Positions 2,969 to 17,115 of a stretch of 53,925 bases of DNA are shown here, in pieces (the first letter of the stretch is position 1; the number at the start of each line of letters is the position of its first letter). The notes below the pieces were generated by a model that was not told the DNA's origin, ran no database searches, and worked only from the letters and a program-made list of their open reading frames with translations. Made by a program: the position numbers and the translations under genes. The DNA comes from Halalkalirubrum salinum (GTDB taxonomy: Archaea; Halobacteriota; Halobacteria; Halobacteriales; Haloferacaceae): assembly GCF_005543295.1 (NCBI RefSeq), contig NZ_SRSG01000011.1:1-53925 (forward strand), given 5' to 3'.

Positions 2969-4315
2969 ATGACTCGAAAGTCTCTGAAGGACGCACGTCC
3001 TTCCCGACGGCAAGTGCTTCGACTGACAGGTGCGCTCGGTGTTGTTGGCCTCGCTGGCTGTACCGGTGATGGCGGCAACGGCAACGGCAACGGTGGTAAC
3101 GGCAATGGTGGCAATGGCAACGGGGACAACGGCAACGGCGACGATAGCGGCTTTGAGGAGACCCTCGAAGTCATGCACGGCTGGACCGGCGGCGACGGCG
3201 CCGACGCCGTTGAGGCGCTCACCACTGCCTTCGAGGAAGAGTATCCGGACATGGATACCTCCTTCCGTGCGATCGGCGGCGGCGGGAACGTCGAACTCGA
3301 TGCTTCAGTCGCGAGCCGTCTCCGTGACGGTGTACCACCGAGCGCGTTCGCCGGGTGGCCCGGAAAAAACCTCTCCCAGTACGAGGGCGTCCTCGGCGAC
3401 ATGGAAGCTGAGGTGTGGGAAGAGGCAGGGCTCTTCGACGCTCACGTCGAGGAGGTCGCAGAACTCTGCCGGTTCGACGGCGGGATGGCTGCGGTGCCGA
3501 TTGGTTCGCACCGGATGAACGACCTGTTTTATAATGTGGAAGTTGTTGAAGCTGCAGGCGTCGATCCGGATAGTATCGACACGTTCGATGCGTTCCTCGA
3601 CGCGCTTGAGGCCATTGAGTCCGAAACTGACGCCCAGCCATACGCGAATTCTCTTGAAGCGTGGACTGTGCTCCAGCTCTGGGCGCAGGTCATGCTCGGC
3701 GGACAGGGATTCGACGCGTACATGAACTTTATCGAGGGCGACGGAGACAGAAGTGCGGTCCAGGAGTCCTTCGAGCGGGTTGAAGAACTCCTTGACACCT
3801 ACCTCAACGACGACGCCCCTGAGATCGGTTTCACCGAAGCAAACCAGCGGATTATGACCGGCGACGCCGGGTTTATTCACCAGGGCAACTGGGCCGCTGG
3901 TGCATATGTGGCTGAGGGCCTTGAGTTCGGAAGCGACTGGGACCGGATCCAGTTCCCCGGAACCGAGAACATGTACGGCTTCCACGTCGACTCATTTATT
4001 TACCCAGCCGACAACCCGAGCCCCGATGAGACACACGCGTTCCTCCGATTTGCCGGCAGCGAAACCGCTCAGATCGAGTTCAACCGCCTGAAGGGTTCGA
4101 TCCCGACCCGCGATGTTGACACGTCGGACTTCAGTCCATACCTCACCGAGACGATCGAGGATTTCCAGAATGCCGAGCATCGACCACCGGCGATCGCTCA
4201 CGGACTGGCCGTTACCCCGTCGCTGCAGGCTGATCTTGAGGATGTCTTGGCCGACACCTTCCTCGATCCGTACGATGTTGAGGCGGCGACCGACGGCTTC
4301 ATCGACGCCCTGTAA
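2969..4315 (+). CDS. Sugar ABC transporter substrate-binding lipoprotein (CUT1 family)
   Basis: This 448-residue protein is an extracellular solute-binding protein of the carbohydrate family. It has a twin-arginine signal (Arg13-Arg14 in SRRQVLRLTG), a hydrophobic core and a lipobox LAGC with Cys31. A Gly/Asn-rich linker (residues about 36-58) tethers it to the membrane. The mature part begins with LEVMHGWTGGDGADAVEAL, the typical first strand and helix of the family. It is the first gene of a four-gene operon with two permeases and an ATPase. The low-complexity linker resembles the one at 17375. The actual sugar is unknown; nearby galactosidases suggest an oligosaccharide, but it lies outside the core island. 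Confidence 0.88.
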   Translation: MTRKSLKDARPSRRQVLRLTGALGVVGLAGCTGDGGNGNGNGGNGNGGNGNGDNGNGDDSGFEETLEVMHGWTGGDGADAVEALTTAFEEEYPDMDTSFRAIGGGGNVELDASVASRLRDGVPPSAFAGWPGKNLSQYEGVLGDMEAEVWEEAGLFDAHVEEVAELCRFDGGMAAVPIGSHRMNDLFYNVEVVEAAGVDPDSIDTFDAFLDALEAIESETDAQPYANSLEAWTVLQLWAQVMLGGQGFDAYMNFIEGDGDRSAVQESFERVEELLDTYLNDDAPEIGFTEANQRIMTGDAGFIHQGNWAAGAYVAEGLEFGSDWDRIQFPGTENMYGFHVDSFIYPADNPSPDETHAFLRFAGSETAQIEFNRLKGSIPTRDVDTSDFSPYLTETIEDFQNAEHRPPAIAHGLAVTPSLQADLEDVLADTFLDPYDVEAATDGFIDAL

Positions 4316-4335
4316 CAACGCTCACTCTGTATTTT

Positions 4336-5412
4336 ATGAAACGAATCATACACGCGATGCGATCACGGGCTCGTCACGCCCGTTCAGACGATGGCGGCTG
4401 TGACGGCCGGGCCGATCGTCCCGCAAGCCTTGCGGACGCCGCCGAAAACAGTCCGGACGCCAGCGCGCTTCGCAGCGACGGCGGTGTCGCCGGCGAAACA
4501 GCCATAACTGACGACTACGAGCGGACACGTCTCCAGCGGTGGCGCGACAGTGATTTCGTCCAGTCCGTGCCGTTTTGGCTGCCCCCATTTTTATTAATGG
4601 GATTTTTTGTCTACGCCGCGATTGGCTGGAACTTCCTTATTTCTCTGACCGAGTATTCAGGGTTCGGTGACATCGACTATTCGACAATCGGGTTACACAA
4701 CTACGTCGAACTCGTCGCGGATGCTGGATTTTGGGCGGCGACCCGGAACACGCTCGTGTTGCTCGTGGCGTTCACGCTTGCCTGTTTGGTGTTGGGGCTG
4801 TCGCTTGCGATCCTCTTGGATCGAAAAATTCGATTTGAGCGCACGTTCAGAACGATTTACCTGTTGCCGTTCGCGCTGTCGTTCATCGTCACCGCGCAGT
4901 TTTGGATGTGGATGTACAACTTCGATTTCGGCATTATCAACGGCCTCTTTGGGCTTGTCGGGCTCGGCCCCTATAGCTGGCTTGGCAGCCCGCGGCTGGT
5001 GCTCGGTTCGGTAATTTTCGCGTTAATGTGGCAGTTCAGCGGCTACACGATGGTCGTGTATCTCGCCGCGCTTCGGGCGATTCCAGGTGATCAATACGAG
5101 GCTGCTCGCGTTGACGGGGCGAACACGCTGAAGCTCTACTGGCGGGTCATTATTCCCCAACTGAAACCAGCAACAGTCAGCGCCTCGGTGGTGCTCGTGT
5201 TGTTCGCGCTGAAGGCGTTCGACTTCCTCTACGCGATCTGGGGGTTCCGCCCACGCCGCGGCGCAGACATTCTCGCAACCAAGATGGTTCGAGAGGCGTT
5301 CCAACGACAGGAGTGGGCCTACGGCGCGTCGATCGCGATCGTACTGTTTATCCTCTCGTTAGCCATCATCGCACCGTACCTCTATCAACAGTATACACAG
5401 GGTAATCTATGA
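4336..5412 (+). CDS. Sugar ABC transporter permease (MalF/UgpA type)
   Basis: The 358-residue protein has a cytoplasmic N-terminal tail of about 75 residues, then six hydrophobic helices starting at VPFWLPPFLLMGFFVY. The EAA loop that docks on the ATPase is clear at about residues 255-279 (YEAARVDGANTLKLYW, then PQLKP). It follows the binding protein by 20 bases and overlaps the next permease by four bases (ATGA). The long Asp/Ser/Ala-rich tail is unusual for MalF-like permeases without a periplasmic P2 domain. A later start is possible, but the tail is in frame with a good ATG at 4336. Confidence 0.87.
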   Translation: MKRIIHAMRSRARHARSDDGGCDGRADRPASLADAAENSPDASALRSDGGVAGETAITDDYERTRLQRWRDSDFVQSVPFWLPPFLLMGFFVYAAIGWNFLISLTEYSGFGDIDYSTIGLHNYVELVADAGFWAATRNTLVLLVAFTLACLVLGLSLAILLDRKIRFERTFRTIYLLPFALSFIVTAQFWMWMYNFDFGIINGLFGLVGLGPYSWLGSPRLVLGSVIFALMWQFSGYTMVVYLAALRAIPGDQYEAARVDGANTLKLYWRVIIPQLKPATVSASVVLVLFALKAFDFLYAIWGFRPRRGADILATKMVREAFQRQEWAYGASIAIVLFILSLAIIAPYLYQQYTQGNL

Positions 5413-6335
5413 GCACTGATACACACTCCTCAACAGACACTGATCCCACCTCGTCGTGGATCGATCGCGTGAGTGCCAGCGATGTCGGATTATACGCGCT
5501 CTTGCTCGGGCTGGTTGCGTTTTATCTGACGCCGATCCAAACCGGGCTCGTCACCTCGATCAAGACGAGTCAGGCATTGCGCGAGACGCTGCCATTCCTC
5601 CCGCCGGGTGCAGCTGGCATTACATTCGAAAAGTGGCAGGTCGCGTTCGAGGCACTCTCGAGTGGAATGATAAACAGCATGTTGTTTACAATTCCCTCGA
5701 CGATTCTCTGTGCGGTCTTCGGGAGTATGGCTGCCTACGGATTGACTCTCGCGAACTGGCGCGGCCAGGTGCTCGTCTTTGCAACGTTTATCGCAGGCAT
5801 CTTCATTCCATATCAGGCGGTCATCATTCCACTCTCGGAGTTTTGGACCGTCTGGGTGAATCTCGACGGTCGCTTAGCCTTCTTGTGGGGACTCCCACTC
5901 CTGGCTGAAAAACACGCGACGATCATCGAACTCATCATCACGCACACTGCGTATGGCATCCCGATCTGTACCGTGTTGTTCCGTGCGCAGTACCAGACGA
6001 TGTCGTGGGAGATGATCGAAGCCGCGCGCCTCGACGGTGCGTCGATGTGGCGTGTCTATCGCCGGATCGTCCTGCCGCTTTCGATCCCGATGTTCGCAGT
6101 GGTGTTCATCTTCCAGTTCACCCAGATCTGGAACGAGTTCCTGTTCTCGTTGACGCTCATCAGAAGTGTGAGCGATCCCGCGGCGTCTGTGACGCTCATC
6201 CTCTCGGGGCTCGGCGAGGCAATGGAAGGCGTTGACTTCCCACTGCGGATGGCCGGCGCGTTCGTCGCCGCACTGCCGACCCTCATCGTCTACGTGCTCT
6301 TTGCGGACGAGTTTGCCGAGGGGGTTAAGGTATGA
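5409..6335 (+). CDS. Sugar ABC transporter permease (MalG/UgpE type)
   Basis: The 308-residue protein is the second CUT1 permease. It has six predicted helices and an EAA loop at about residues 203-227 (IEAARLDGASMWRVYRR, then VLPLSIP). The start overlaps the stop of the first permease in ATGA, and its own stop overlaps the start of a 28-codon reading frame in the same way. The proteins of this operon should form a heterodimeric channel in the cytoplasmic membrane, energised by the ATPase at 6421. Confidence 0.87.
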   Translation: MSTDTHSSTDTDPTSSWIDRVSASDVGLYALLLGLVAFYLTPIQTGLVTSIKTSQALRETLPFLPPGAAGITFEKWQVAFEALSSGMINSMLFTIPSTILCAVFGSMAAYGLTLANWRGQVLVFATFIAGIFIPYQAVIIPLSEFWTVWVNLDGRLAFLWGLPLLAEKHATIIELIITHTAYGIPICTVLFRAQYQTMSWEMIEAARLDGASMWRVYRRIVLPLSIPMFAVVFIFQFTQIWNEFLFSLTLIRSVSDPAASVTLILSGLGEAMEGVDFPLRMAGAFVAALPTLIVYVLFADEFAEGVKV

Positions 6336-6418
6336 GTCATCAGACAGCACGGCCCGCCGAGACGGACAGGGTCGAATCGATCGGTATCCAACACACTCCA
6401 ATACAGGAGGCCTACTAA
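6332..6418 (+). CDS. 28-codon open frame linking permease and ATPase genes
   Basis: An ATG at 6332 overlaps the permease stop codon (ATGA) and opens a frame of 28 codons ending in TAA at 6416-6418, two bases before the ATPase start. The predicted peptide begins MSHQTARPAETDRVES and ends IQEAY. It has no recognisable domain and no hydrophobic segment. The arrangement would keep ribosomes moving from the permease to the ATPase. A strong AGGAGG at 6405-6410 within the frame serves the ATPase. Whether the peptide itself is functional is unknown. Confidence 0.4.
   Translation: MSHQTARPAETDRVESIGIQHTPIQEAY
6405..6410 (+). promoter_or_regulatory. Shine-Dalgarno site of the ATPase gene
   Basis: AGGAGG lies ten bases before the ATG at 6421. 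It supports that codon as the start rather than the in-frame upstream extension, which runs antiparallel to no known domain and overlaps the permease end. Confidence 0.65.
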
Positions 6419-6420
6419 TC

Positions 6421-7578
6421 ATGGCACGAACAACACTCGAACATATCACGAAAGTATTCACTGACGACAACGCCAACGATATCGTCGCTGTTGACGACGT
6501 CTCGATCGAAATCGAAGACGGAGAGTTCCTCGTTCTCGTCGGTCCCTCCGGCTGTGGCAAATCGACGACGCTGCGGATGGTCGCCGGGCTCGAGACAATC
6601 ACTGACGGAAGGATCCGTCTTGATGATCGCGTCATCAACGATCTCCCCGCACAGGACCGAGACATCGCGATGGTGTTCCAGTCCTACGCGCTGTATCCAC
6701 ACATGACCGTCCGGGGCAACATGGCATTCGGACTTGAGGAGTCGACTGATCTCCCGGACGAGGAAATCGACGCGCTCGTCACCGAAACCGCTGAGATGTT
6801 GGGAATCGAGGGGATGCTTGATCGCACCCCTGACGAGCTCTCTGGCGGTCAGCAACAACGGGTCGCGCTCGGGCGAGCGATCGTTCGCGATCCCGACGTG
6901 TTCTTGATGGACGAACCGCTGTCGAACCTCGACGCGAAGCTCCGCTCGCAGATGCGTATGGAGCTCCAGCGGCTCCAGGAGGGACTCGACACGACCACAA
7001 TATACGTCACACACGACCAGACGGAGGCGATGACGATGGGCGATCGGATCGCGGTTCTCAACGATGGGAAACTCCAGCAGGTCGGAACACCACTCGAATG
7101 CTATCACCGGCCGGCAAACCTGTTTGTTGCCGGATTTATTGGCGAGCCGTCGATGAACATGATTACTGGAACGATCGACGGCGACGCGTTCGTTAGCGAC
7201 GAGTTCACATATCCGATCTCTGCAGACCTGGCCGCCGAACTTGAGGGAGTCTTCGACGTGACGCTCGGGATTCGTCCAGAGGATCTCGAACTATCCACTG
7301 AAGAGCCGGAAGACTCCCGTGCACTCTCGATGATCGTCGATGTCGTTGAGCCGATGGGCGATGAAAACGTCGTGTATCTTCGATTCGACAGCGGCGATGT
7401 CGGTATCGACGACGACCAACTCGTTCTCATCGCAACAATCGATGGCATAAGCGATATCGCGGGTATTGATCGCGTTTCGGTCCGCATTCCAGAGGAGGCG
7501 CTGCACGTCTTTTCAACTGAAACTGGCAATGCGATCCGCAATCGCCGTCTCGAGGGCGACGTCGAACGCGTCGTTTGA
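6421..7578 (+). CDS. Sugar ABC transporter ATP-binding protein (MalK/UgpC/MsmX type)
   Basis: With the start at 6421 the protein is 385 residues, normal for the CUT1 ATPase family. It has Walker A GPSGCGKST (residues 41-49), the signature LSGGQQQRVALGRA (about 140-153), Walker B ending in FLMDEPLSNLD, and the switch histidine in THDQTEAM (about 197). The C-terminal 130 residues form the MalK-type TOBE/OB regulatory domain (GIRPEDLEL). It closes the operon, and a T-rich stretch follows. The sequence is paralogous to the ATPase at 20713. Confidence 0.9.
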   Translation: MARTTLEHITKVFTDDNANDIVAVDDVSIEIEDGEFLVLVGPSGCGKSTTLRMVAGLETITDGRIRLDDRVINDLPAQDRDIAMVFQSYALYPHMTVRGNMAFGLEESTDLPDEEIDALVTETAEMLGIEGMLDRTPDELSGGQQQRVALGRAIVRDPDVFLMDEPLSNLDAKLRSQMRMELQRLQEGLDTTTIYVTHDQTEAMTMGDRIAVLNDGKLQQVGTPLECYHRPANLFVAGFIGEPSMNMITGTIDGDAFVSDEFTYPISADLAAELEGVFDVTLGIRPEDLELSTEEPEDSRALSMIVDVVEPMGDENVVYLRFDSGDVGIDDDQLVLIATIDGISDIAGIDRVSVRIPEEALHVFSTETGNAIRNRRLEGDVERVV

Positions 7579-7607: not shown

Positions 7608-8291
7608 TCAGTTGTTGGGATCGATCGCGAGCGATCGGACGCCAACGATCAACAGATAGGCAGCGACAACAGCCGAAAGTACTCCCACGATACCTAGCGA
7701 TCGGGCCGTGATCGAGCCGAACCAGCCCGCCAGCGCCACGGCCGCAAAGCCAATGGCCCACGATCCCAGATAGTCGGTCGTTCGAAGCACGTCTCGGGAC
7801 TCTGAAAGCAACAGTGCGTCTCGGAATGATCGCCCTCGGAGCCGGACCGCGATCATCACTGGAATAACGTACAGCGTAGCGAGCATCGTCGCAATTGCTG
7901 TTGTTGATCCCAATAAAAAAGCCACAGAGGCACCACCACCGGTCGGGATCCCGTCTGCAGCAGCCAACGCCGTGAGCGCGAGTAGTCCGGCCGGGGCTGC
8001 CGTGACGACAACGGTGATGACAACCGCGTCGCGCCCGGTCATACTTATGGGTACCACACCCTCCAGCCCTGGTTGCGGATTCAGTTTATATCCAACTGCA
8101 AACAAGTATCCAATCATATATAGAATAATACTCATTACGATGAGGAGTACAATACCGCCGGCAACAGCGGGCAATAGGGCTGCGGCGTATCGCCCCGCGA
8201 TCGCAACTGCGAGTACACACGCGGTGACAATTGCGATCGACCGGATCGTCTCTGCGGATCGAAGTGGCGGCCATCGCTGATCGAATTGCAT
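7608..8291 (-). CDS. Predicted multi-pass membrane protein of unknown function
   Basis: The chosen start (ATG ending at 8291, MQFDQRWPPLRS) gives 227 residues. A longer in-frame extension upstream to 8705 would run through the transducer gene and looks non-coding. The protein has five to six hydrophobic segments, including TACVLAVAIAGRYAAALLPA and GGIVLLIVMSIILYMIGYLF, and a short cytosolic stretch RLRGRSFRDALLLSESRDVL. I do not recognise the family; a DUF4013-like relation is possible. It is divergent from the transducer gene, with only about 80 bases between starts. Confidence 0.6.
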   Translation of the reverse strand: MQFDQRWPPLRSAETIRSIAIVTACVLAVAIAGRYAAALLPAVAGGIVLLIVMSIILYMIGYLFAVGYKLNPQPGLEGVVPISMTGRDAVVITVVVTAAPAGLLALTALAAADGIPTGGGASVAFLLGSTTAIATMLATLYVIPVMIAVRLRGRSFRDALLLSESRDVLRTTDYLGSWAIGFAAVALAGWFGSITARSLGIVGVLSAVVAAYLLIVGVRSLAIDPNN

Positions 8292-8372
8292 ATCAGTTCC
8301 TGCTTGTTCCTCCCGCTCGCTCAGTATCAAACGATCGGAATCATAATGATCGTCTGTGCGCGTGGTGTGGGC

Positions 8373-10754
8373 ATGCCCCAATGGTTCCGACGCGTCGTCC
8401 CCGACGTAATCCGGCAGCGATACGCGCTGAAGTTTATGCTCGTTTTGTTGCTTATTGGCCTCTGCATCGGCGCAATGGGGCATCTCGGGACCGAGCAACT
8501 CGCCGGTGAGGTTCAAGACCGTGCGTACGCAGAACAGTCGACACTCGCCGAACAGGAAGCCAGACACGTGAGCAACTGGCACGATCGCAACTACTTCATT
8601 ACGGACGCACTCACCACCTCTGATGTCGTCGTTGCGGGTGATGTCGACGACGCGTACTTTTCGCGGACGAAGGCACAGTACGCAGGAACGGTAAACCACA
8701 TCCACTACGTTGACGTAGGCGAGCGCGAGGTAACGTACAGTACCTCTTCGGATGTGTCACGAGATCTCGATACAGTCGAGGAACCATGGGGATCACTCAG
8801 GCCACTCGACGAACGCGACGACACCACCGCGCTGGAGTTCGCAAAAACTCGATCGCTCGGTGCGTATATTTCTCATGATGGTACACCTGTCGTCGCGTAC
8901 GCAAAGCCAATCCCAAACGATCGTGGCCAGTACCTCAACTCCGAGCGGTTCTTGATTGTAACCGCTCGTCTAGACTCACTCAGCGAGGAGTTACTCAACG
9001 CAGACGGAACTATCTCGTATGTTGTCGACCCAACAGATAACCGAGTTATCGCAGATCCTGCCGGAGAATCGTACTTCGACGCGTATCCACACGGCAGTGA
9101 TATCGTTGGTACACAGGGAACGACTGAGTTCGGCGTCCCGGCTGAATCGTTGCAGCGATCGATCGCCGCGTCAAATCCTGACCGAACCAATGTCGACGGC
9201 GAATACATTGCGTCGTACGCGCGTATTCCTGGCGATGATCTGAATGGGCTCTATCTCGTCGTTCATACCCCCCAAGAGAACGTTTTTGGCTTCATTGATA
9301 CGGTACAGTTGTATGGGCGGATTATCACTGTCGTCGGGATCTTTCTCATCATGCTCGTCGGTGGGGTAATGGGACAGAATCGCTCGGCAGCGGTCAGTGA
9401 ACTCAAACAGAAAACTGAACGAATGGAGGCCGGTGATCTCGACGTTAATTTTGAGAGCGATCGGATCGACGACCTTGGCCGACTGTACGACGGACTCGGA
9501 TCGATGCGTGACGCGCTCGTCTCCCAGATTCAGCGGGCAGAACGAGCCCGAGCCGACGCGGAGGCCGAACGAGAACACGTCCAACAGCTCAACGACGATC
9601 TCCAAGCGACGGCCGACACCTACGCGCAAGTGATGCGCGCAGCCGCAGACGGAGATCTAACAGTTCGAATGGATACAAATATTTCTGACACACCACAGAT
9701 GGAGCAGATCGCAGCCGAGTTTAACGAGATGCTACAGACGACAGAGCGGACGGTCGCACAACTTAATGAGTTCGCCGAGCACGTGGCTGCGACGAGCGAA
9801 GACGTTACAACGTCGAGCGATTCGGTTCGCACAGCAAGCGAACGGGTGAGCGATTCGATCGGTGAAATCGCGGCGGACGCACAGTCACAAAACGAGCTAT
9901 TACAGGCGGCGACCACTGAGCTGTCAGACTTGGCGGCGGTAACAGAGGATATCTCTGCTTCCACCGACGAGGTCGCAACCCTCGCTGCCCAGACTGCCGA
10001 CGCAAGCGAAACAGGGCGGGTCGCCGCGGCGAACGCGATCGACGGGATGGACGAGGTCGAAACCTCTTCCAAGCAGGCCGTCGCAGAAATTATTACGTTG
10101 CAATCAGAGGTCGAACAAGTCGACGAACTCATCGATCGGATCGGCGAGATCGCTGATCAGACTAACATGCTTGCACTGGATACGACGATTGAGGCGTCTC
10201 GATCCGAGAGCGCGTCAGCGGCAAATGCCGATGGATTTGATTTCGTTGTTAACGAAATTAAATCTCTTTCGAGAGACACGAAGTCGGTCGCCGAAGAGAT
10301 CGAGACGCGACTCGATCGGATACGTGAACAGACCGGTCGATCTGTCCACGAGGTCGAACGAACGAGCGAGCAGATCGACGAGGTTAGCGATCGGGTCACT
10401 GACGCTGTAACGGCACTTGAGCGGATCGACGACTACGCCCAAGAGACGAACGACGGCGTCCAGGCAATCTCCGCATCGACGAAACAACAGGCCGAGTCGA
10501 CTGACGAAGTGGTTTCAATGGCAGCACAGGCGGCATCGATCGCCAGAGAAACCAGTGCTGAGGCCCGCGTTGTGGACGCTCTTGCGGACAAACAGGTGAG
10601 TGAACTCCACTCTGTCTCGCGATCGGCGTCGACCCTGTCGGCTCAATCGGGGGTTCTCTCGGACACGTTGTCGACGTTTGAAACGTCAGTGGAGGACCCA
10701 ACAGTCGTCTCGCCGCTCTTTGTCCGTACGGGAGGAACGCCGCCATCAGAGTGA
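8373..10754 (+). CDS. Halobacterial transducer (methyl-accepting chemotaxis protein) with atypical signalling tip
   Basis: Starting at the ATG of MPQWFRRVVPDVIRQRYALKF (alternative ATG at 8346) gives 793 residues. The layout is TM1 (about 20-40), an extracellular sensor domain of about 275 residues, TM2 (about 318-337), HAMP, and a long coiled-coil methyl-accepting domain. The conserved hairpin tip (about 596-620) begins ADQTNMLAL but continues DTTIEASRSESASAANADG and then FDFVVNEIKSLSRDT. Normal transducers read N-A-A-IEAARAGE and GFAVVADEV there. The tip is therefore about three residues longer and several contacts with CheA/CheW differ. It probably senses an external ligand, perhaps one of the nearby sugars, but this is inference. 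Confidence 0.88.
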   Translation: MPQWFRRVVPDVIRQRYALKFMLVLLLIGLCIGAMGHLGTEQLAGEVQDRAYAEQSTLAEQEARHVSNWHDRNYFITDALTTSDVVVAGDVDDAYFSRTKAQYAGTVNHIHYVDVGEREVTYSTSSDVSRDLDTVEEPWGSLRPLDERDDTTALEFAKTRSLGAYISHDGTPVVAYAKPIPNDRGQYLNSERFLIVTARLDSLSEELLNADGTISYVVDPTDNRVIADPAGESYFDAYPHGSDIVGTQGTTEFGVPAESLQRSIAASNPDRTNVDGEYIASYARIPGDDLNGLYLVVHTPQENVFGFIDTVQLYGRIITVVGIFLIMLVGGVMGQNRSAAVSELKQKTERMEAGDLDVNFESDRIDDLGRLYDGLGSMRDALVSQIQRAERARADAEAEREHVQQLNDDLQATADTYAQVMRAAADGDLTVRMDTNISDTPQMEQIAAEFNEMLQTTERTVAQLNEFAEHVAATSEDVTTSSDSVRTASERVSDSIGEIAADAQSQNELLQAATTELSDLAAVTEDISASTDEVATLAAQTADASETGRVAAANAIDGMDEVETSSKQAVAEIITLQSEVEQVDELIDRIGEIADQTNMLALDTTIEASRSESASAANADGFDFVVNEIKSLSRDTKSVAEEIETRLDRIREQTGRSVHEVERTSEQIDEVSDRVTDAVTALERIDDYAQETNDGVQAISASTKQQAESTDEVVSMAAQAASIARETSAEARVVDALADKQVSELHSVSRSASTLSAQSGVLSDTLSTFETSVEDPTVVSPLFVRTGGTPPSE

Positions 10755-10783
10755 TCTCGGTACGCTTACTCATCCCTGTTGAA

Positions 10784-10807
10784 AATTACAAATATAATGC
10801 TGTAATT
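10784..10807. terminator. Inverted repeat after the transducer gene
   Basis: AATTACA (10784-10790) and TGTAATT (10801-10807) form a 7-bp stem with a 10-base AT-rich loop, 30 bases after the transducer stop and before the 3' end of the convergent beta-galactosidase gene. It may act as a terminator or as an operator. Confidence 0.35.
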
Positions 10808-10826
10808 CCTCTTTGTGCCAGCCATT

Positions 10827-10843
10827 GTTTCTCTATACGAAAT
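10827..10843. promoter_or_regulatory. Putative IclR-type operator O1
   Basis: GTTTCTCTATACGAAAT is a partial inverted repeat (TTTCT-N5-CGAAA). It is identical, in reverse orientation, to the site at 13752-13768 upstream of iclR. It lies 13 bases beyond the 3' end of the beta-galactosidase gene, an unusual place for an operator because no gene start is nearby. Confidence 0.5.
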
Positions 10844-10855
10844 AATTCTCACAGC

Positions 10856-12868
10856 CTACTGGTCAGCCAGCTCGATTTGGAGCTGGTCGATCGGCGCGTG
10901 TTTGGCGACTGCACAGCCGAATGGTTCGAGCGCACTATCGCCAACAAGCCAGTCACCCCCGGTGTCGATCTCGTAGTCCTCACTGGTGAAGTTGACTATC
11001 CACGTGCGGTCCCCGCGAGCTCCGACTCTGACTCCGACCGGAAGCCGATCGGTGTGTGCGACGTCGCCCCGACTGAGGCACTCGGTTACAAGTTCGTCTG
11101 CGAGGTCCTCGCGAGGCCACACCCCGCAGTACGTAACCGTTCCGTCGCCGGCAGCGTGTTCGACGACCGCCGCGGCGTCTGCTCCAGGACCGTGTTCGTA
11201 CCGCATTCGGACGATCGCGTCCGTCGGTTCGAGCCACTCAGCCCACGTTCGGTACGCGAACGATCGATCGGTCTCGGTCTCGCGGACGCGCGTCTCCATC
11301 CGATTGGGAACCGATTCGTGTTGGTCGACGGTCGCGCCGACAAGCGACGCGAGCGGTCCCGGCTGTGGCTCTGCCCTAAGTGTGTTGTGGTGGTCTTTTG
11401 ATCCACTCCGCGGGCCGATAAGGAGTTCGCCACCGTCTTCGACGTAGGTGGTGAGCCGATCGGCCAACTCCTCGGTCATAAGGTACAGCGAGGGAGCGAT
11501 GACGACATCGTAGTCCGAAAGCGACGTCGCGGGATCGATAACATCGACCTGTACACCTCGGGACCGAACCGCGCCGTAGAACCCGTCGACCAGCGACCAG
11601 TAGTCGAAGTCGGGACTGTGTGGCTGTTCGGACAGTGCCCAAAGCGAGTCGTAGTCGTGTAGCACCGCCACCGGCGCATTCACCGAACCGAATTCGCTGA
11701 GGCGATCGAACTCCTCGGCTGCCTGTGCGGCGTCCGCGTAGCCGCGATCGGGACTGCCGTCCTGTTTCAACAGGCCAGCGTGGTACTGTTCTTGTCCGGA
11801 GAGACACCGCCGCCACCGAAAGTACAACACGGCATCCGCACCGTGCGCGGCCGCGTGGTGTGCCCACAGTCGCATTGCGCCCTCCGCGGGCTGCGGACAG
11901 CGCGGGGGCCAGTTTACGTCGCCGGGCTGTTGTTCCATCACCCAGAAAGGCTGGCCAAGCGCACCCCGATACAGGTCGTGGTTCAGCCCGACTTGATCGG
12001 GATCGCCCGCCCGGAGTTCGTCAACGGTCGCCTCGCCGTCGCGGCGGTCCTGGACGAATCCGGTCGGATACGAATCCCATGAAACCAGATCGAGCGCCTC
12101 GCTGACGTCGTAGGCGTTGAGGGTCGGGAAATGCCCCATGAAGTTGTGTGTCACGAACCACTCGGGGTTTGTCTCCCGAAGGACCTGTGTGTGGATCTTG
12201 TTATACTCGACGACGCTGTCGCTCGAAAATCGCGCGTACGCCAGCGTTCGGGACGGATGCTGTTCGGCCGGCGTCGGCTGGGGTGGATCGATCGCCGCAA
12301 ACGAGGGGTATCCTTGGGACCAAAACGCGTTCCCCCAGGCCTCGTTGAGGTGGTCGATGTCGTCGTACCGCTCGCGTAGCCACGTTCGGAACGCCGATGC
12401 ACACTCATCACAGTAACACCGCACCGTCCGGTGGCAGCCGAATTCGTTGTCCGTCTGCCAACCCGCAACCGCCGGGTGATCCGCGTACCGCTCCGCAAGG
12501 ATCGACACGATGCGTTCGGTCTCCGCGCGATAGCGCGCGGAATTAAAACAGTAGTGTCGCCGGCTCCCAAACCCTCGGACTGTTCCATTGAGGTCACGTT
12601 GGTGAATCTCGGGATACTCGTCGACGAGCCACTTCGGCGGCGTCGCTGTCGGGGTACAGAGAATTGCCTCCAGCCCATGATCGTCGATTAGCGACAGCGC
12701 CGTGTCGAGCCACTCGAAGTCGAACGTCCCGCGTTCAGGCTCGATCCGCTCCCACGCGAACTCCCCCATTCGGACGTACTTGATTCCCGCTTCTGCCATG
12801 CGTTCAATGTCTGTTGCCCACCGTTCGGGCGGCCAGTGCTCCGGAAAGTAACACGTTCCGATCGCCAT
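10856..12868 (-). CDS. bgaH: GH42 beta-galactosidase
   Basis: This 670-residue enzyme hydrolyses terminal beta-galactosides in the cytoplasm. It begins with the family signature MAIGTCYFPEHWPPERW. The acid/base Glu142 lies in TDNEFG and the nucleophile Glu312 in FWVMEQQPG. Cys107, Cys151, Cys153 and Cys156 match the structural zinc site of Thermus A4 beta-galactosidase. Length and motifs agree with BgaH of Haloferax. No signal peptide is present, so the substrate must be imported, presumably by the nearby ABC system. It follows iclR by 92 bases. A TATA-like TTTAGG on the minus strand (12892-12899) and an operator (12945-12961) suggest its own regulated promoter. Confidence 0.95.
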   Translation of the reverse strand: MAIGTCYFPEHWPPERWATDIERMAEAGIKYVRMGEFAWERIEPERGTFDFEWLDTALSLIDDHGLEAILCTPTATPPKWLVDEYPEIHQRDLNGTVRGFGSRRHYCFNSARYRAETERIVSILAERYADHPAVAGWQTDNEFGCHRTVRCYCDECASAFRTWLRERYDDIDHLNEAWGNAFWSQGYPSFAAIDPPQPTPAEQHPSRTLAYARFSSDSVVEYNKIHTQVLRETNPEWFVTHNFMGHFPTLNAYDVSEALDLVSWDSYPTGFVQDRRDGEATVDELRAGDPDQVGLNHDLYRGALGQPFWVMEQQPGDVNWPPRCPQPAEGAMRLWAHHAAAHGADAVLYFRWRRCLSGQEQYHAGLLKQDGSPDRGYADAAQAAEEFDRLSEFGSVNAPVAVLHDYDSLWALSEQPHSPDFDYWSLVDGFYGAVRSRGVQVDVIDPATSLSDYDVVIAPSLYLMTEELADRLTTYVEDGGELLIGPRSGSKDHHNTLRAEPQPGPLASLVGATVDQHESVPNRMETRVRETETDRSFAYRTWAEWLEPTDAIVRMRYEHGPGADAAAVVEHAAGDGTVTYCGVWPREDLADELVTECLSRGDVAHTDRLPVGVRVGARGDRTWIVNFTSEDYEIDTGGDWLVGDSALEPFGCAVAKHAPIDQLQIELADQ

Positions 12869-12944
12869 ACCCGATCGACCGCCGGCCGTAACCTAAACGT
12901 TTCTATCGCGGCGACGATGAGCGATCGGCAACGAGCCTCATGTC

Positions 12945-12961
12945 GTTTCGCATAACGAAAT
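12945..12961. promoter_or_regulatory. Putative IclR-type operator O2 upstream of the beta-galactosidase gene
   Basis: GTTTCGCATAACGAAAT contains the perfect inverted repeat TTTCG-N5-CGAAA. It lies 77-93 bases upstream of the beta-galactosidase start and about 50 bases upstream of its TATA-like box, which would fit activation. It touches the stop codon of the iclR gene. Confidence 0.6.
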
Positions 12962-13722
12962 TACTGCGAAAACAGCTGGAGTTCGATCTCGTTTGCGGTA
13001 CTGATCACGAGCCCGGCGAGGTCTTCTTCCAGCTTCTTCCCGCTCATTGTGTCGATGCTCCCGGAGACACTTACAGCTCCGATAGGACCATCCTCCGTGG
13101 TAATCGGCGCAGCGACACACTGAACAGAGGGGAGGTGTTCGCCTCGCTCGAACGCGAGTTCACGGTCACGAACGGATCGAAGCATTGCGAACAGTTCGTC
13201 GGGGTCTGTGGTCGTCTTCGCTGTCAGCTTCGGCAACCCGGTTGTCTCAATAATTGTCTCAACTGCCTCACGCGGTAACTGTGAGAGGATCGCTTTCCCG
13301 CCCGCTGTCGCATGGAGGTATATGCGCTCGCCAATCGTGGGAAGATAGCCCTGCACTGCTGCGGAGTCACCGGCGCGGTACAGATAGATCCCATACCCCT
13401 GTTCTGGGACGATGAGATTGACAATCGCCCCTGAAGTGTCCGCAAGATTGTCGATCGCCGGGCGTGCGATCCGAAATAGCTCCGATCGGTCCCGCATTCG
13501 ACAGCCCAACCCGAGAAATCGATAGCCGAGGCTGTAGCTCGTGTCCTCTTTGACGACGTAACCGAGCGATCGGAGCGTTGTGAGGTGTTTGTGCACTGAC
13601 CCCTTCGAGATCCCCGTCTTCTCGGCCAGCTCTGTCACCCCGGCTGTCCCCGCCTCCCGGAGCGCTTCGATGATCGTAAACGAGGTTCGAACCGCCCCGA
13701 CCGGGTATGTCTGATCGCTCAT
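12961..13722 (-). CDS. IclR-family transcriptional regulator
   Basis: The 253-residue protein has an N-terminal winged helix (about residues 10-70, with TELAEKTGISKGSVHKHLTTL as the recognition helix-turn-helix) and a C-terminal IclR effector domain (ending IGAVSVSGSIDTMSGKKLEEDL). The effector pocket is expected to bind a sugar acid or keto acid. It sits between the SDR gene and the beta-galactosidase gene on the same strand, with spacings of 53 and 92 bases. A copy of the inverted-repeat site overlaps the TATA-like region upstream of its start, so it is probably autoregulated. It is the likely regulator of the galactose genes. Confidence 0.9.
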   Translation of the reverse strand: MSDQTYPVGAVRTSFTIIEALREAGTAGVTELAEKTGISKGSVHKHLTTLRSLGYVVKEDTSYSLGYRFLGLGCRMRDRSELFRIARPAIDNLADTSGAIVNLIVPEQGYGIYLYRAGDSAAVQGYLPTIGERIYLHATAGGKAILSQLPREAVETIIETTGLPKLTAKTTTDPDELFAMLRSVRDRELAFERGEHLPSVQCVAAPITTEDGPIGAVSVSGSIDTMSGKKLEEDLAGLVISTANEIELQLFSQ

Positions 13723-13751
13723 ACGCGGAGCATGGACGCTTCACTATTAAA

Positions 13752-13768
13752 ATTTCGTATAGAGAAAC
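13752..13768. promoter_or_regulatory. Putative IclR-type operator O3 at the iclR promoter
   Basis: ATTTCGTATAGAGAAAC is the exact reverse complement of O1. It begins 30 bases upstream of the iclR start. Its left end overlaps a TATA-like ATTTTAA on the minus strand (about 13747-13754), which would fit autorepression. Confidence 0.6.
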
Positions 13769-13775
13769 GCACCAG

Positions 13776-14627
13776 CTACCGGTCATTTTGTTTGATCTCG
13801 CGTGCGTAGGAGACGAACGGCGCATCCTCCATGAGCGCCGATCGGCCGCCGTCGATCAGGATCGAACTCCCGGTCATGAACGATGCGTCGTCGCTGGCGA
13901 GGAACGCCGCCGCGCCCGCGACGTCTCCCGGCTGGCCGATCCGACCGATCGGGTGGAGTTCTTCGACCTCCTCGTAGCGGCCCTCCGCGAGCTCCTCGCG
14001 GGTTCTGTCGACCTCGATCCAGCCCGGATTGAGGCTGTTCGCCCGGATCCCGAGCGGACCGAGTTCAACGGCCATCGCTCGGGTCATCCCGTCAGTCCCT
14101 GCCTTGACGGCATTATACGGGAATATCTCCGGCATCGTGAGCCGCGCGTGGTTCGATGAGATGTTGATGATGCTCCCGCCTTCTGGCATGTGTTCGATCG
14201 CCTCCTTCGCGGCGAGCCAGTACCCTCGGAAGTCGGTGTCGACGACGAACGACCAGTCCTCGAGCGTTGCATCCCGAACGCCTGTCTCCGTCTGGACCGC
14301 TGCGTTGTTCACAAGTACGTCGATCGACCCGTATTCCTCGACGGTTTCCTCGATGAGCGCGGCGATCGACTCGGGTTCGCGCATGTCCACGCGAACAAAT
14401 CGTGCGTCACCGTCGTTGGCTGCGTTCGTGATCTCGCGGGCGACTGCCTCGCCGGCCGCCTCACTGCGCCCCGAAACCACAACGTTCGCGCCCTCGCCAG
14501 CGAATCGGCGAGCGATTGCCGCGCCGATCCCGCGTGTCGAACCGGTGACAATCGCCGTTCGATCGTCGAGTCTGCCCCCGCTGCCGTTGCCGTTCGACCC
14601 GCCGCCGTTCGCGTTTGGTGTCAGCAT
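13776..14627 (-). CDS. SDR-family sugar dehydrogenase, probable galactose dehydrogenase
   Basis: The 283-residue protein is a classical short-chain dehydrogenase. The cofactor motif TGSTRGIG starts at Thr28, NNAA is at 107-110, the catalytic serine is in NISSNHA (157/158), and the Tyr-x3-Lys pair is Tyr171/Lys175 in YNAVK. A Gly/Asn-rich extension of about 18 residues precedes the domain. It lies three bases after galactonate dehydratase in the same operon, which suggests oxidation of galactose to galactonolactone, the first step of the De Ley-Doudoroff pathway. The substrate is inferred from context, as SDR sequences alone do not fix it; a gluconate-type or other polyol dehydrogenase is an alternative. 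Confidence 0.85.
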   Translation of the reverse strand: MLTPNANGGGSNGNGSGGRLDDRTAIVTGSTRGIGAAIARRFAGEGANVVVSGRSEAAGEAVAREITNAANDGDARFVRVDMREPESIAALIEETVEEYGSIDVLVNNAAVQTETGVRDATLEDWSFVVDTDFRGYWLAAKEAIEHMPEGGSIINISSNHARLTMPEIFPYNAVKAGTDGMTRAMAVELGPLGIRANSLNPGWIEVDRTREELAEGRYEEVEELHPIGRIGQPGDVAGAAAFLASDDASFMTGSSILIDGGRSALMEDAPFVSYAREIKQNDR

Positions 14628-14630
14628 GGA

Positions 14631-15785
14631 TTACCACTCCGTGACGCTGCCATCGTCGTTCCGCCACACTGGGTTGTGCCAGTTGACGGTCCGTTCGGCC
14701 TGGCGTTTGACGTAGGATTCGTTGATGTCGATCCCGAGACCCGGATCGCTCGGCACATCGACGTAGCCGTCTTTGTACTCGAAGACGGTCGGGTCCGTGA
14801 GATAGTCCAGTACATCGCTCGTCTCGTTGTAGTGAATGTTGAGACTCTGTTCTTGGATCAGCGCGTTTGGCGAGACCGTATCCACGTGCACGCAAGACGC
14901 GAGCGCGATCGGGCCGAGCGGACAGTGCGGCGCAAGCGCGACGTCGTAGGCCTCAGCCATCGCGGCGATCTTTTTCACCTCCGTGATCCCACCGGCGTGT
15001 GAGAGATCCGGTTGAATGATATCAACGCTGCCGTCCTCGAACACCTCCTTGAAGTCCCATCGAGAGAACATTCGTTCGCCCGTCGCGATCGGGATTGTCG
15101 TGTGTGCGGCGATGTCACCCAGCGCGTCGTTGTGCTCGGGTAGGACGGGCTCTTCGATGAACATCGGCTCGTACGGCTCGAGCGCCTTCGCGAGCCGTTT
15201 TGCCATCGGCTTCGATACCCGTCCGTGGAAATCGACGCCAATGTCGACCTCGGGACCGACTCGTTCTCGGACCTCTGCGAGCCGATCGCGGGCAGACTGG
15301 ACCGCCGCGGGATTATCCACGCGGCGCAGTTCCGAGGTCGCGTTCATCTTGAGTGCGCTGAAGCCGTTGTCGACCTTCTCGGCAGCCGCGTCGCCCACCT
15401 CGCTCGGTCGATCGCCGCCAATCCACTGATAGACGCGGATGCGATCGCGTGCCCGCCCGCCCAACAGCTCGTAGACAGGCGCGCCGAACTGCTTGCCCTT
15501 GATATCCCACAGCGCCTGATCGATTCCCGCGATCGCGCTCATGAGCACCGGTCCTCCGCGGTAGAAGCCGCCGCGATACATCGTCTGCCAGTGATCTTCG
15601 ATTCGGTGTGGATCCTCCCGAAGGAGGTAGTTGTCCATCAGCTCTTCGACGGCTCCTTTGACGGTCTTTGCGCGGCCCTCAACGACAGGCTCGCCCCAGC
15701 CGACGGTCCCGTCGCTGGTCTCGATCCGCAGGAATAGCCATCGTGGCGGTACTTCGTACAGGTCGTAGTCGACGATCGTTGTCAT
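14631..15785 (-). CDS. dgoD: D-galactonate dehydratase (enolase superfamily)
   Basis: The 384-residue protein aligns along its whole length with E. coli DgoD: PPRWLFLRIETSDG near the start, RGGFYRGGPVLMSAIAGID, and WRNDDGSVTEW at the end. Magnesium ligands are Asp185, Glu211 and Glu237, and the catalytic histidines are His187 (DFHGRVS) and His287 (APHCPLGP). It removes water from galactonate to give 2-keto-3-deoxygalactonate. It follows the alpha-galactosidase gene by 22 bases and precedes the SDR gene by three, so they form one operon. This is the clearest marker that the island degrades galactose by the oxidative route. Confidence 0.94.
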   Translation of the reverse strand: MTTIVDYDLYEVPPRWLFLRIETSDGTVGWGEPVVEGRAKTVKGAVEELMDNYLLREDPHRIEDHWQTMYRGGFYRGGPVLMSAIAGIDQALWDIKGKQFGAPVYELLGGRARDRIRVYQWIGGDRPSEVGDAAAEKVDNGFSALKMNATSELRRVDNPAAVQSARDRLAEVRERVGPEVDIGVDFHGRVSKPMAKRLAKALEPYEPMFIEEPVLPEHNDALGDIAAHTTIPIATGERMFSRWDFKEVFEDGSVDIIQPDLSHAGGITEVKKIAAMAEAYDVALAPHCPLGPIALASCVHVDTVSPNALIQEQSLNIHYNETSDVLDYLTDPTVFEYKDGYVDVPSDPGLGIDINESYVKRQAERTVNWHNPVWRNDDGSVTEW

Positions 15786-15807
15786 TGGTCTGGATTCGGT
15801 AGAGTCG

Positions 15808-17115
15808 TTAGCTCAGCGCTGGAAGATACGGTTCATTCGCGTCGAGCAGTTCCTCGGTCATCTCGTGGATCTCTTCGAGGGTCAACGCCGCCGCGGTCAA
15901 TGGATCGAGCTTCACCGCCTGGTGGATCGATTCGCGATCGCCTTCGAGCGCGCCCTTGACTGTCAGCTGTTGGACGTGGATGTTCGATCGATTCAACGCA
16001 GCAAGCTGCGGCGGCAAATCACCAACGCTGCAGGGATGAATGCCCGTCCCGTCGACGAAACACGGCACCTCCACACAGGCCGACCGCGGCAGGTTGGTGA
16101 TCGAGGCATCTGCATTACTCACGTTGAGGTTGAACCGACGCGCCGTGTCGGTCTCCAGTGAGTGGATGATCCGCGAGGCGTACTCCTCGGAGCGTTCGAT
16201 CGTGACCGACTGGGGATCGATATCCGCGAGCGCGCGATCACGTTCTGCCGAGCGGGCTTTCCACCCTTCGAGGTACGTTGCTGTTGGCATCCGCTCGGCG
16301 TAGTCGGTGCCGGTCAGCCGCTCAATTTCTTCGGGATCAGTCCGGAAGTACGGGTGGTACTCGCTGTTGTGGTGGCTCGACTCTGTCACGAACGCGCCGA
16401 AGTGTTTGAACAGGTCGAACCGAACGGTGTCGCGCTCGTAGATCGACTCGTCGGTCATTGCCTCCCGAAGCCGCGGGTACAGGTCCTCGCCATCGTGTTC
16501 ACACTGGAGGAACCACGCCATGTGGTTGATACCGGCGACCCAGTAGTCGAGTTCGTCTTTGGGCACTCCGACATACTCGGCAATTGCCTCTGCGGTATGT
16601 GGAACGCTATGACACAACCCGATCGTCTCGATATCAGTCTCCTCAAACAGCGCCCAGCAGAGAATCGCCATCGGGTTCGTGTAGTTCATAAACAATGCGT
16701 TCGGACACAGTTCCTCCATGTCTGCGACAATGTCGAGCATCGTCGGCAGCGTCCGGAGTGCCCGGAAGATTCCGCCTGGCCCAAGCGTGTCGCCGATCGC
16801 CTGCTCAACGCCGTATTCCCGTGGGATCTCGATCTCGTTTTCAAACGGCTCGGTGCCGCCGACGTTGATCATGTTGAGCACGTAATCGGCGCCGTCGAGT
16901 GCCTCGCGGCGATCGGTTGTCGATTCGATCGTTGCCTCGACCTCGGTGTTTTCGACCATCGCAGTCGCGATCTGCGTCGTCTGTTCAAGCCGGTGTTCGT
17001 CGATGTCCATCAGCACGATCTCACTGCTGGACAGCGCCGGAAACGAGAGGATGTCACCAACGAGTTTCTTGGCGAACACCATGCTTCCGGCTCCAATAAA
17101 GGCGATACGTGGCAT
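15808..17115 (-). CDS. melA: GH4 alpha-galactosidase (MelA-like)
   Basis: The 435-residue protein belongs to glycoside hydrolase family 4, which needs NAD+ and a divalent metal. It has the N-terminal nucleotide-binding loop IGAGSMVF (7-14), MDIDEHRLE, DTLGPGGIFRALRT (109-122), the metal and catalytic GLCHS with Cys168-His169, and GINHMAW with His198, all as in MelA. It lacks a signal peptide and so acts in the cytoplasm on imported melibiose- or raffinose-type sugars. It is the first gene of the minus-strand operon. A TTTTAAG-like box on the minus strand around 17141-17148 is the likely promoter. The MITE-like element lies further upstream. Other GH4 specificities, such as alpha-glucuronidase, are less likely given dgoD next door. 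Confidence 0.9.
   Translation of the reverse strand: MPRIAFIGAGSMVFAKKLVGDILSFPALSSSEIVLMDIDEHRLEQTTQIATAMVENTEVEATIESTTDRREALDGADYVLNMINVGGTEPFENEIEIPREYGVEQAIGDTLGPGGIFRALRTLPTMLDIVADMEELCPNALFMNYTNPMAILCWALFEETDIETIGLCHSVPHTAEAIAEYVGVPKDELDYWVAGINHMAWFLQCEHDGEDLYPRLREAMTDESIYERDTVRFDLFKHFGAFVTESSHHNSEYHPYFRTDPEEIERLTGTDYAERMPTATYLEGWKARSAERDRALADIDPQSVTIERSEEYASRIIHSLETDTARRFNLNVSNADASITNLPRSACVEVPCFVDGTGIHPCSVGDLPPQLAALNRSNIHVQQLTVKGALEGDRESIHQAVKLDPLTAAALTLEEIHEMTEELLDANEPYLPALS

Follow-up and report, generated by a model that had tools for sequence, protein, structure and literature searches.

Few stretches of signalling proteins are as conserved as the hairpin tip of chemoreceptors, and the asparagine at the trimer contact is considered intolerant of change. 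Every replacement of this residue in Tsr (N381) was reportedly non-functional in work by Gosink from 2011, with charged replacements the worst, and most of the mutants are said to have lacked complexes with CheA and CheW. One study places N496 of Bacillus subtilis TlpA at the trimer contact and describes N496R, following Tsr, as stopping trimerisation (PMC4632190); a second source credits trimer-contact residues of the outer subunit with a presumed role in promoting CheA and/or CheW binding (PMC4692393). The Htr proteins of Halobacterium salinarum are archaeal transducers feeding CheA and CheW, as the protein described here would be. Of these, 15 of 18 fall into four interaction groups, with the expected complex in one group only (PMC3579733), which is a precedent for transducers that differ in their association with CheA and CheW.

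Halalkalirubrum salinum encodes an intact transducer (MCP/Htr) of 793 amino acids at positions 8373 to 10754 of the forward strand, with an open frame throughout. Coordinates are those of the window, the whole stretch of 53,925 nucleotides that was analysed. The mechanical ORF begins at a TTG at 8286, and the ATG at 8373 is the likely start: compared with the ortholog from the halophilic archaeon SHRA6, the longer ORF differs at 10 of its first 27 residues and is identical at residues 28 to 73, and the ATG is residue 30. The layout is TM1, an extracytoplasmic sensor, TM2, a HAMP domain, and a hairpin signalling domain, all encoded on the forward strand. No Pfam family scores above its cut-off in the sensor region (8463 to 9317, residues 31 to 315), which is 44% identical to that of the nearest relative, L186, and 24 to 29% identical to those of the more distant L193, L204, L016, and L024. 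The relative L204 has a sub-threshold match to dCache_1 (E of 0.003), so that a Cache-like fold is no more than conjecture. The HAMP domain (9393 to 9521, residues 341 to 383) scores 32.9 bits against a cut-off of 25, and the MCP signalling domain PF00015 (10005 to 10538, residues 545 to 722) scores 77 to 81 bits against a cut-off of 34.6. Residues 701 to 710 (ASTKQQAEST; 10473 to 10502) form the one predicted CheR/CheB methylation motif under a strict consensus, and L186 and L193 have QQ pairs at the aligned place. A weak AlphaFold2 model built from a two-row alignment (pLDDT averaging 43 overall, close to 70 around the hairpin tip, and 51 at the turn) has two long helices and a turn at residues 611 to 615, consistent with a hairpin and nothing further.

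The initial annotation proposed an altered hairpin tip behind an intact ADQTNMLAL flank. Indeed, the exact peptide, ADQTNMLAL-DTTIEASRSESASAANADGFDFVVNEIKSLSRDT, lies in frame at this place. The tip reads DTTIEASR-SESASAANAD-GFDFVVNEIK, where relatives have NA(S/N)IEAAR, six residues, and GFAVVADEVK, and the altered stretch spans 10179 to 10262. Its N-terminal arm, D603 to R610 in 793-residue numbering (10179 to 10202, with D603 at 10179), has DTTIEASR for NA[S/N]IEAAR, the extended turn SESASAANAD (10203 to 10232) has 10 residues instead of 6, and the C-terminal arm (10233 to 10262) has GFDFVVNEIK for GFAVVADEVK. In Tsr numbering, D603 is the equivalent of N381, and the changes in the C-terminal arm are A397D, V398F, and A400V. 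E. coli Tsr and B. subtilis TlpA have the same hairpin architecture as this transducer but carry asparagine at the D603 site (N381 and N496, respectively; PMC4632190). Unchanged in the tip are I, E, and A of IEA, the equivalents of R388, G, F, V399, E402, and K404, and also that of E385; we take Tsr E385, R388, and E402 to be the residues most important for kinase coupling.

Two details of the initial annotation need correction. It counted an insertion of about three residues, whereas the turn has gained four: 10 residues lie between R610 and GF, compared with 6 in 90 of 123 unique tips. This insertion is the sole hairpin indel relative to L001 and the main one relative to L186 and L193, which otherwise lack one residue near 436. 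It also described a change in charge, but the net tip charge of -4 is ordinary, the 158 other tips averaging -4.5 and lying between -7 and -2; charges are merely redistributed.

Transducers were collected from 20 genomes, including that of H. salinum (15 of them with transducers), and from the loci of best homologues. With a profile built without this transducer and its SHRA6 ortholog, the position-specific score over 18 tip columns is 7.9 bits, the lowest of 167 haloarchaeal transducers and tied with the ortholog. The next-lowest scores are 16.6 and 17.7 (L152 and L150), followed by values from 53 upward. The flanking domain ranks only 31st lowest (53rd for the ortholog), and the departure of the tip is thus beyond chance. 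Nine of the 18 tip columns match the consensus NAxIEAAR..GFAVVADEVK, against a median of 16. The substitutions hit near-invariant positions: N381 and A382 are each kept in 165 of 167 rows, A400 in 164, and V398 in 152. The statement that nearly all transducers share the tip holds as far as the first two of these positions go. Aspartate at N381 and A397, threonine at A382, phenylalanine at V398, and valine at A400 are shared by just two rows of the 167, this transducer and its ortholog. The initial annotation had named beforehand, as evidence against its claim, the presence of the same tip in many normal transducers; none of the other 165 rows carries it. Within the genome, the nine other transducers all begin the tip with N and have V/A at the Tsr V398/A400 positions.

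A longer turn or an A-to-S change after IEA is common, chiefly in genomes of the Natrialbaceae type described below. The turn extension was rejected as an unusual feature in its own right: 29 of the 123 unique tips, including those of this transducer and its ortholog, have turns of more than six residues. Turn lengths come from 140 rows (123 unique). The pattern used for them was unfit for L097, L147, L150, L151, and L152, of which L097 comes close to the canonical tip, L150 and L152 are strongly deviant, and L147 and L151 each extend over more than one frame. The 167-row set restores L097, L150, and L152; it omits L140 (short), L147, L151, identical rows, two Treponema loci, the CheA/CheW loci, and duplicate copies of the altered-tip transducer and its ortholog, and 30 variable Natrialbaceae-type tip rows stand outside it. 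The tips of L150 (G173) and L152 (G172) are almost as deviant (NAKIESSR... and NAKVEATR...), with poorly conserved flanks as well. The transducer matches L147 (G174) and L151 (G009) are broken across frames and represent disrupted genes or assembly errors.

The pattern (L/F)A(L/F)DxxIEA, which misses tips without L/F-A-L/F ahead of the D, occurs at 38 places in 34 of the 391 genomes sampled from the class. The codons at each of these places show the LALDTTIEA arm only in H. salinum and SHRA6. Twenty-two places were read in context (20 loci plus G102 and G371), and two of these lie within transducer sequence, namely this transducer and G004. Another 15 were read by codons alone, none with DTTIEA, and the SHRA6 place (G006), which has no locus of its own, is the ortholog read as L015/L044. 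The G004 match (L166/L275) is a stand-alone tip remnant of about 30 residues, LALDASIEAARADEAGDGFAVVAE, which has the N-to-D change and no flanking signalling domain. Haloarchaeal tip variants do not figure in the titles and abstract openings of the literature searched, a body of text that mostly excludes subscription papers, and a literature search on SHRA6 found no paper.

A tip of this kind could have arisen by ordinary tolerated drift, with the protein working like the other nine in mixed trimers through compensating changes and without any new property. Natrialbaceae-type genomes show a wide variety of tips (e.g., NASVEAGRGDNTQGTLKVIAEEVQSFA), turn extensions are as frequent as noted above, and L009 in the same genome has a five-residue extension on canonical arms. 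Similarly, an alignment places TIEA, LS after the C-terminal arm, and a non-AVV C-terminal arm in receptor chains 3g6b/3g67, which we take to be Thermotoga-type. However, the variable Natrialbaceae-type tips keep the first-position asparagine in 30 of 30 cases among the matches listed (30 loci of 50 places), and the tied-lowest tip score is not paralleled in the flanks. Further, tip identity of this transducer to 56 full-length relatives is 0.50 to 0.61 (flank mean of 0.46), compared with a minimum of 0.67 and a mean of 0.81 in 854 comparison pairs with flank identities of 0.42 to 0.60. The part that is normally slowest to change has therefore diverged here almost like its surroundings, and we consider drift somewhat unlikely. 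The glycine-rich extension of L009 (ASGSTEGGAGD) has a counterpart in L144 (ASGSGEGGAGD), also on canonical arms, and is kept in SHRA6.

The SHRA6 ortholog (genome G006, locus L044) is intact and 92% identical over 793 residues; its tip arms are identical and its turn sequence is different. The nearest relatives outside the genus have normal or less altered tips. Between the two species, the 43 tip codons contain 20 synonymous differences, 4 of them in the turn and 16 elsewhere, and 7 non-synonymous differences, all in the turn. The dN/dS ratio (NG86) is 0.067 for the gene, 0.056 for the signalling domain, and 0.51 for the fast-evolving turn (11 codons); in the last 63 codons it is 0.013, with 21 synonymous differences and 1 non-synonymous. 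The transducer is maintained by purifying selection, and its tip arms strongly so. SHRA6 has 6 transducers to the 10 of H. salinum and still keeps this one.

These comparisons bear on whether the gene is decaying or its sequence in error. The PF00015 score is the lowest among the genome's ten transducers, and the bare remnant in G004 indicates that the same N-to-D change is possible in a dead transducer gene. Against this stand an intact protein in two species, the low dN/dS of the whole gene, and the nearly pure synonymous change at the C terminus. Tip arms shared with SHRA6 across diverged DNA exclude a sequencing error and argue against decay, making this explanation extremely improbable; a pseudogene was rejected on the open frame and dN/dS. 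The altered tip is real and specific to this lineage; it is rare in the sample and has been kept by selection.

The initial annotation suggested that the protein may signal through a different partner, for which we find no support at the level of genes. In the genome, which is 99.8% complete, contig C8 carries the only CheA and the only stand-alone CheW. Domain searches of this genome gave one match to the CheA dimerisation domain and two to the CheW domain, one of them inside CheA, and no second CheA or second stand-alone CheW was found. In SHRA6, the CheW domain is matched twice, by a stand-alone frame and by a frame of CheA size, the same layout. The H. salinum CheW is 93% identical to that of SHRA6, 64 to 83% identical to the best match in six other genomes of the family and 50% in a seventh, and 42 to 61% identical in five genomes of other families. 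The values are 27 to 38% in seven f5 genomes, 40% in G172 (f4), and 45% in G287 (f5), with several f4/f5 alignments partial and the G287, G172, and G173 loci each giving the same best frame twice. By these identities, the H. salinum CheW is ordinary for its family. In g21 genomes, clade members with nearly normal tips coexist with the same kind of CheW. Since no dedicated variant partner was found, the Che-family partner of the altered tip is likely that of the nine canonical transducers.

The receptor might instead be uncoupled, binding neither CheA nor CheW and either addressing another partner, such as the divergently encoded membrane protein or a regulator of the sugar locus, or only titrating CheR/CheB. 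Its substitutions fall on the trimer/CheA/CheW surface, and a charged residue at the N381 site blocks trimers (PMC4632190). In H. salinarum, the full receptor-CheA-CheW-CheY set was seen in only one of the four transducer groups (PMC3579733). In addition, the gene for the membrane protein adjoins the transducer in both species. Against an uncoupled receptor stand the strong purifying selection on the tip arms and the retention of the E385, R388, and E402 equivalents and the methylation motif. Further, a scan of ten neighbouring proteins recognised no signal-transduction domain in any of them. We regard this alternative as quite unlikely.

Aspartate at the trimer contact, combined with strong selection, leaves three possibilities: a compensated private interface, disuse of the interface, or a tolerance on grounds that the data do not show. 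We tentatively prefer the first, a working transducer on the shared CheA and CheW with a remodelled, compensated private trimer interface, as a serious possibility that falls short of being probable. This reading is favoured by the retention of the presumed coupling residues and a methylation motif, and by there being no CheA or CheW other than the shared ones. The protein would be a working transducer whose subfamily is best represented among haloarchaea of the Natrialbaceae type, and its signal, perhaps related to the galactoside locus, would reach the cell's one CheA and CheW by way of HAMP and the hairpin. Rewriting of the tip in this lineage (Asp at the N381 and A397 sites, Phe at V398, Val at A400, and four more residues in the turn) may have remodelled the dimer-dimer interface, giving the receptor its own or weaker trimers and little mixing with the nine canonical transducers, while the equivalents of E385, R388, and E402 would keep the contact with CheA and CheW. 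The second idea of the initial annotation was a distinct array; here, altered mixing with other receptors is plausible because the changed positions include the trimer-contact asparagine. If the result reported by Gosink for Tsr holds here, the altered-tip receptor would not couple, which counts against the preferred explanation.

In a stricter version, the transducer would trimerise only with itself, forming an insulated unit that still drives the shared CheA and CheW. The aspartate on the trimer axis would then be offset by the Phe and Val of the opposing arm, with cations of the molar-salt cytoplasm perhaps contributing. We hold this version to be rather unlikely. Coupling, trimer behaviour, and ligand are all features that we infer. 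A natural aspartate receptor kept by selection in two species in which a single CheA and a single stand-alone CheW are seen raises the question of whether a few substitutions can rewire trimers of dimers. Its rewritten, selection-kept tip offers a natural test of receptor grouping and signal relay, and the transducer is a ready-made test protein for insulating receptors within one cell.

Among 392 genomes of the order, the f5 genomes G326 and G256 hold the best full-length relatives outside the genus (48%); other f5 and f4 genomes come next. Named plasmid matches of like kind come from Natronosalvus, Halosolutus, and Haloterrigena, which their records place in Natrialbaceae, and by inference family f5 is Natrialbaceae. 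The Natrialbaceae-type transducers L186 to L192 (f5) resemble the altered-tip transducer in full-length homology (44 to 48% identity) and, in L186 and L189, in domain order, but their tips differ, with NANIEA[A/S]R..GF[S/A][V/A]VA.EVK. As the tips of the nearest relatives (28 loci) are normal or only mildly altered, the changes most simply arose on the H. salinum/SHRA6 lineage. The g21 transducers of the same family (L016 to L025; about 40% identity) share IK, LS, and an acidic residue at A397 and have a turn one residue longer, but differ in keeping canonical N381, A382, V398, and A400 equivalents.

In a signalling-domain tree with the tip removed, the altered-tip transducer, SHRA6, and eight f4/f5 rows form a 10-row set (SH-aLRT of 96). 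The full-length tree, also without the tip, groups the transducer with 28 f4/f5/f13 rows at 100, as their sister, with long branches flagged and a support of 71.7 for the branch that makes it sister. A clade of the altered-tip transducer and g21 alone was rejected (AU p of 0.014). Recent transfer from Natrialbaceae is possible from these placements, although the full-length tree gives the sister position instead; GC3 of the gene, 0.61 compared with 0.67 to 0.79 in nine neighbours, is a weak hint only of transfer.

In five of the eight best-scoring genomes outside the genus (G326, G256, G303, G202, and G172), the homologue lies at most about 12 kb from CheW-domain matches in stand-alone and CheA-sized frames; such proximity is absent in G287, G190, and G311. 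In G202, this transducer is the only PF00015 match. Among L252 to L272 (G326, G256, G303, G190, and G311) are several strongly divergent tips, such as NASVEAGRGDNTQGTLKVIAEEVQSFA and NANLEAKRSGGGEGFNVVADEFKYLS, and the CheW proteins of these genomes are only 27 to 36% identical to that of H. salinum, possibly reflecting a co-diverged receptor-adaptor system. A locus on plasmid PL131 of Natronomonas pharaonis (L217, 54900 to 57290), whose annotation is urea ABC transporter substrate-binding protein, has a 47% match to the signalling half of the altered-tip transducer. We read it either as a transducer with a binding-protein-like sensor fused to it or as one misnamed after such a sensor.

The transducer gene is flanked by a divergent membrane-protein gene (7608 to 8705, reverse strand) with a weak, below-cut-off match to DUF4013. 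Its counterpart in SHRA6 is 85% identical, and it was not found in the roughly 1.5-kb flanks searched at the loci of other relatives. A sugar-type ABC transporter (binding protein, two permeases, and a MalK-like ATPase; 2969 to 7578, forward strand) adjoins the transducer in H. salinum and is not present in the 5.3 kb upstream of the transducer in SHRA6. On the other side, a convergent block (10856 to 17115, reverse strand) encodes a GH42 beta-galactosidase, an IclR regulator, an SDR, a member of the MR/MLE enolase family, and a GH4 protein, and is collinear in SHRA6 as far as 16644, the end of the compared locus. Because galactoside-utilisation genes lie beside the transducer, its signal is perhaps galactoside-related, which is a guess from two species of one genus that do not share the ABC transporter. 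Nucleotide identity to the SHRA6 locus is 88% over positions 7632 to 13784 and 96% over 13775 to 16644, a jump that suggests recent recombination between the two species.
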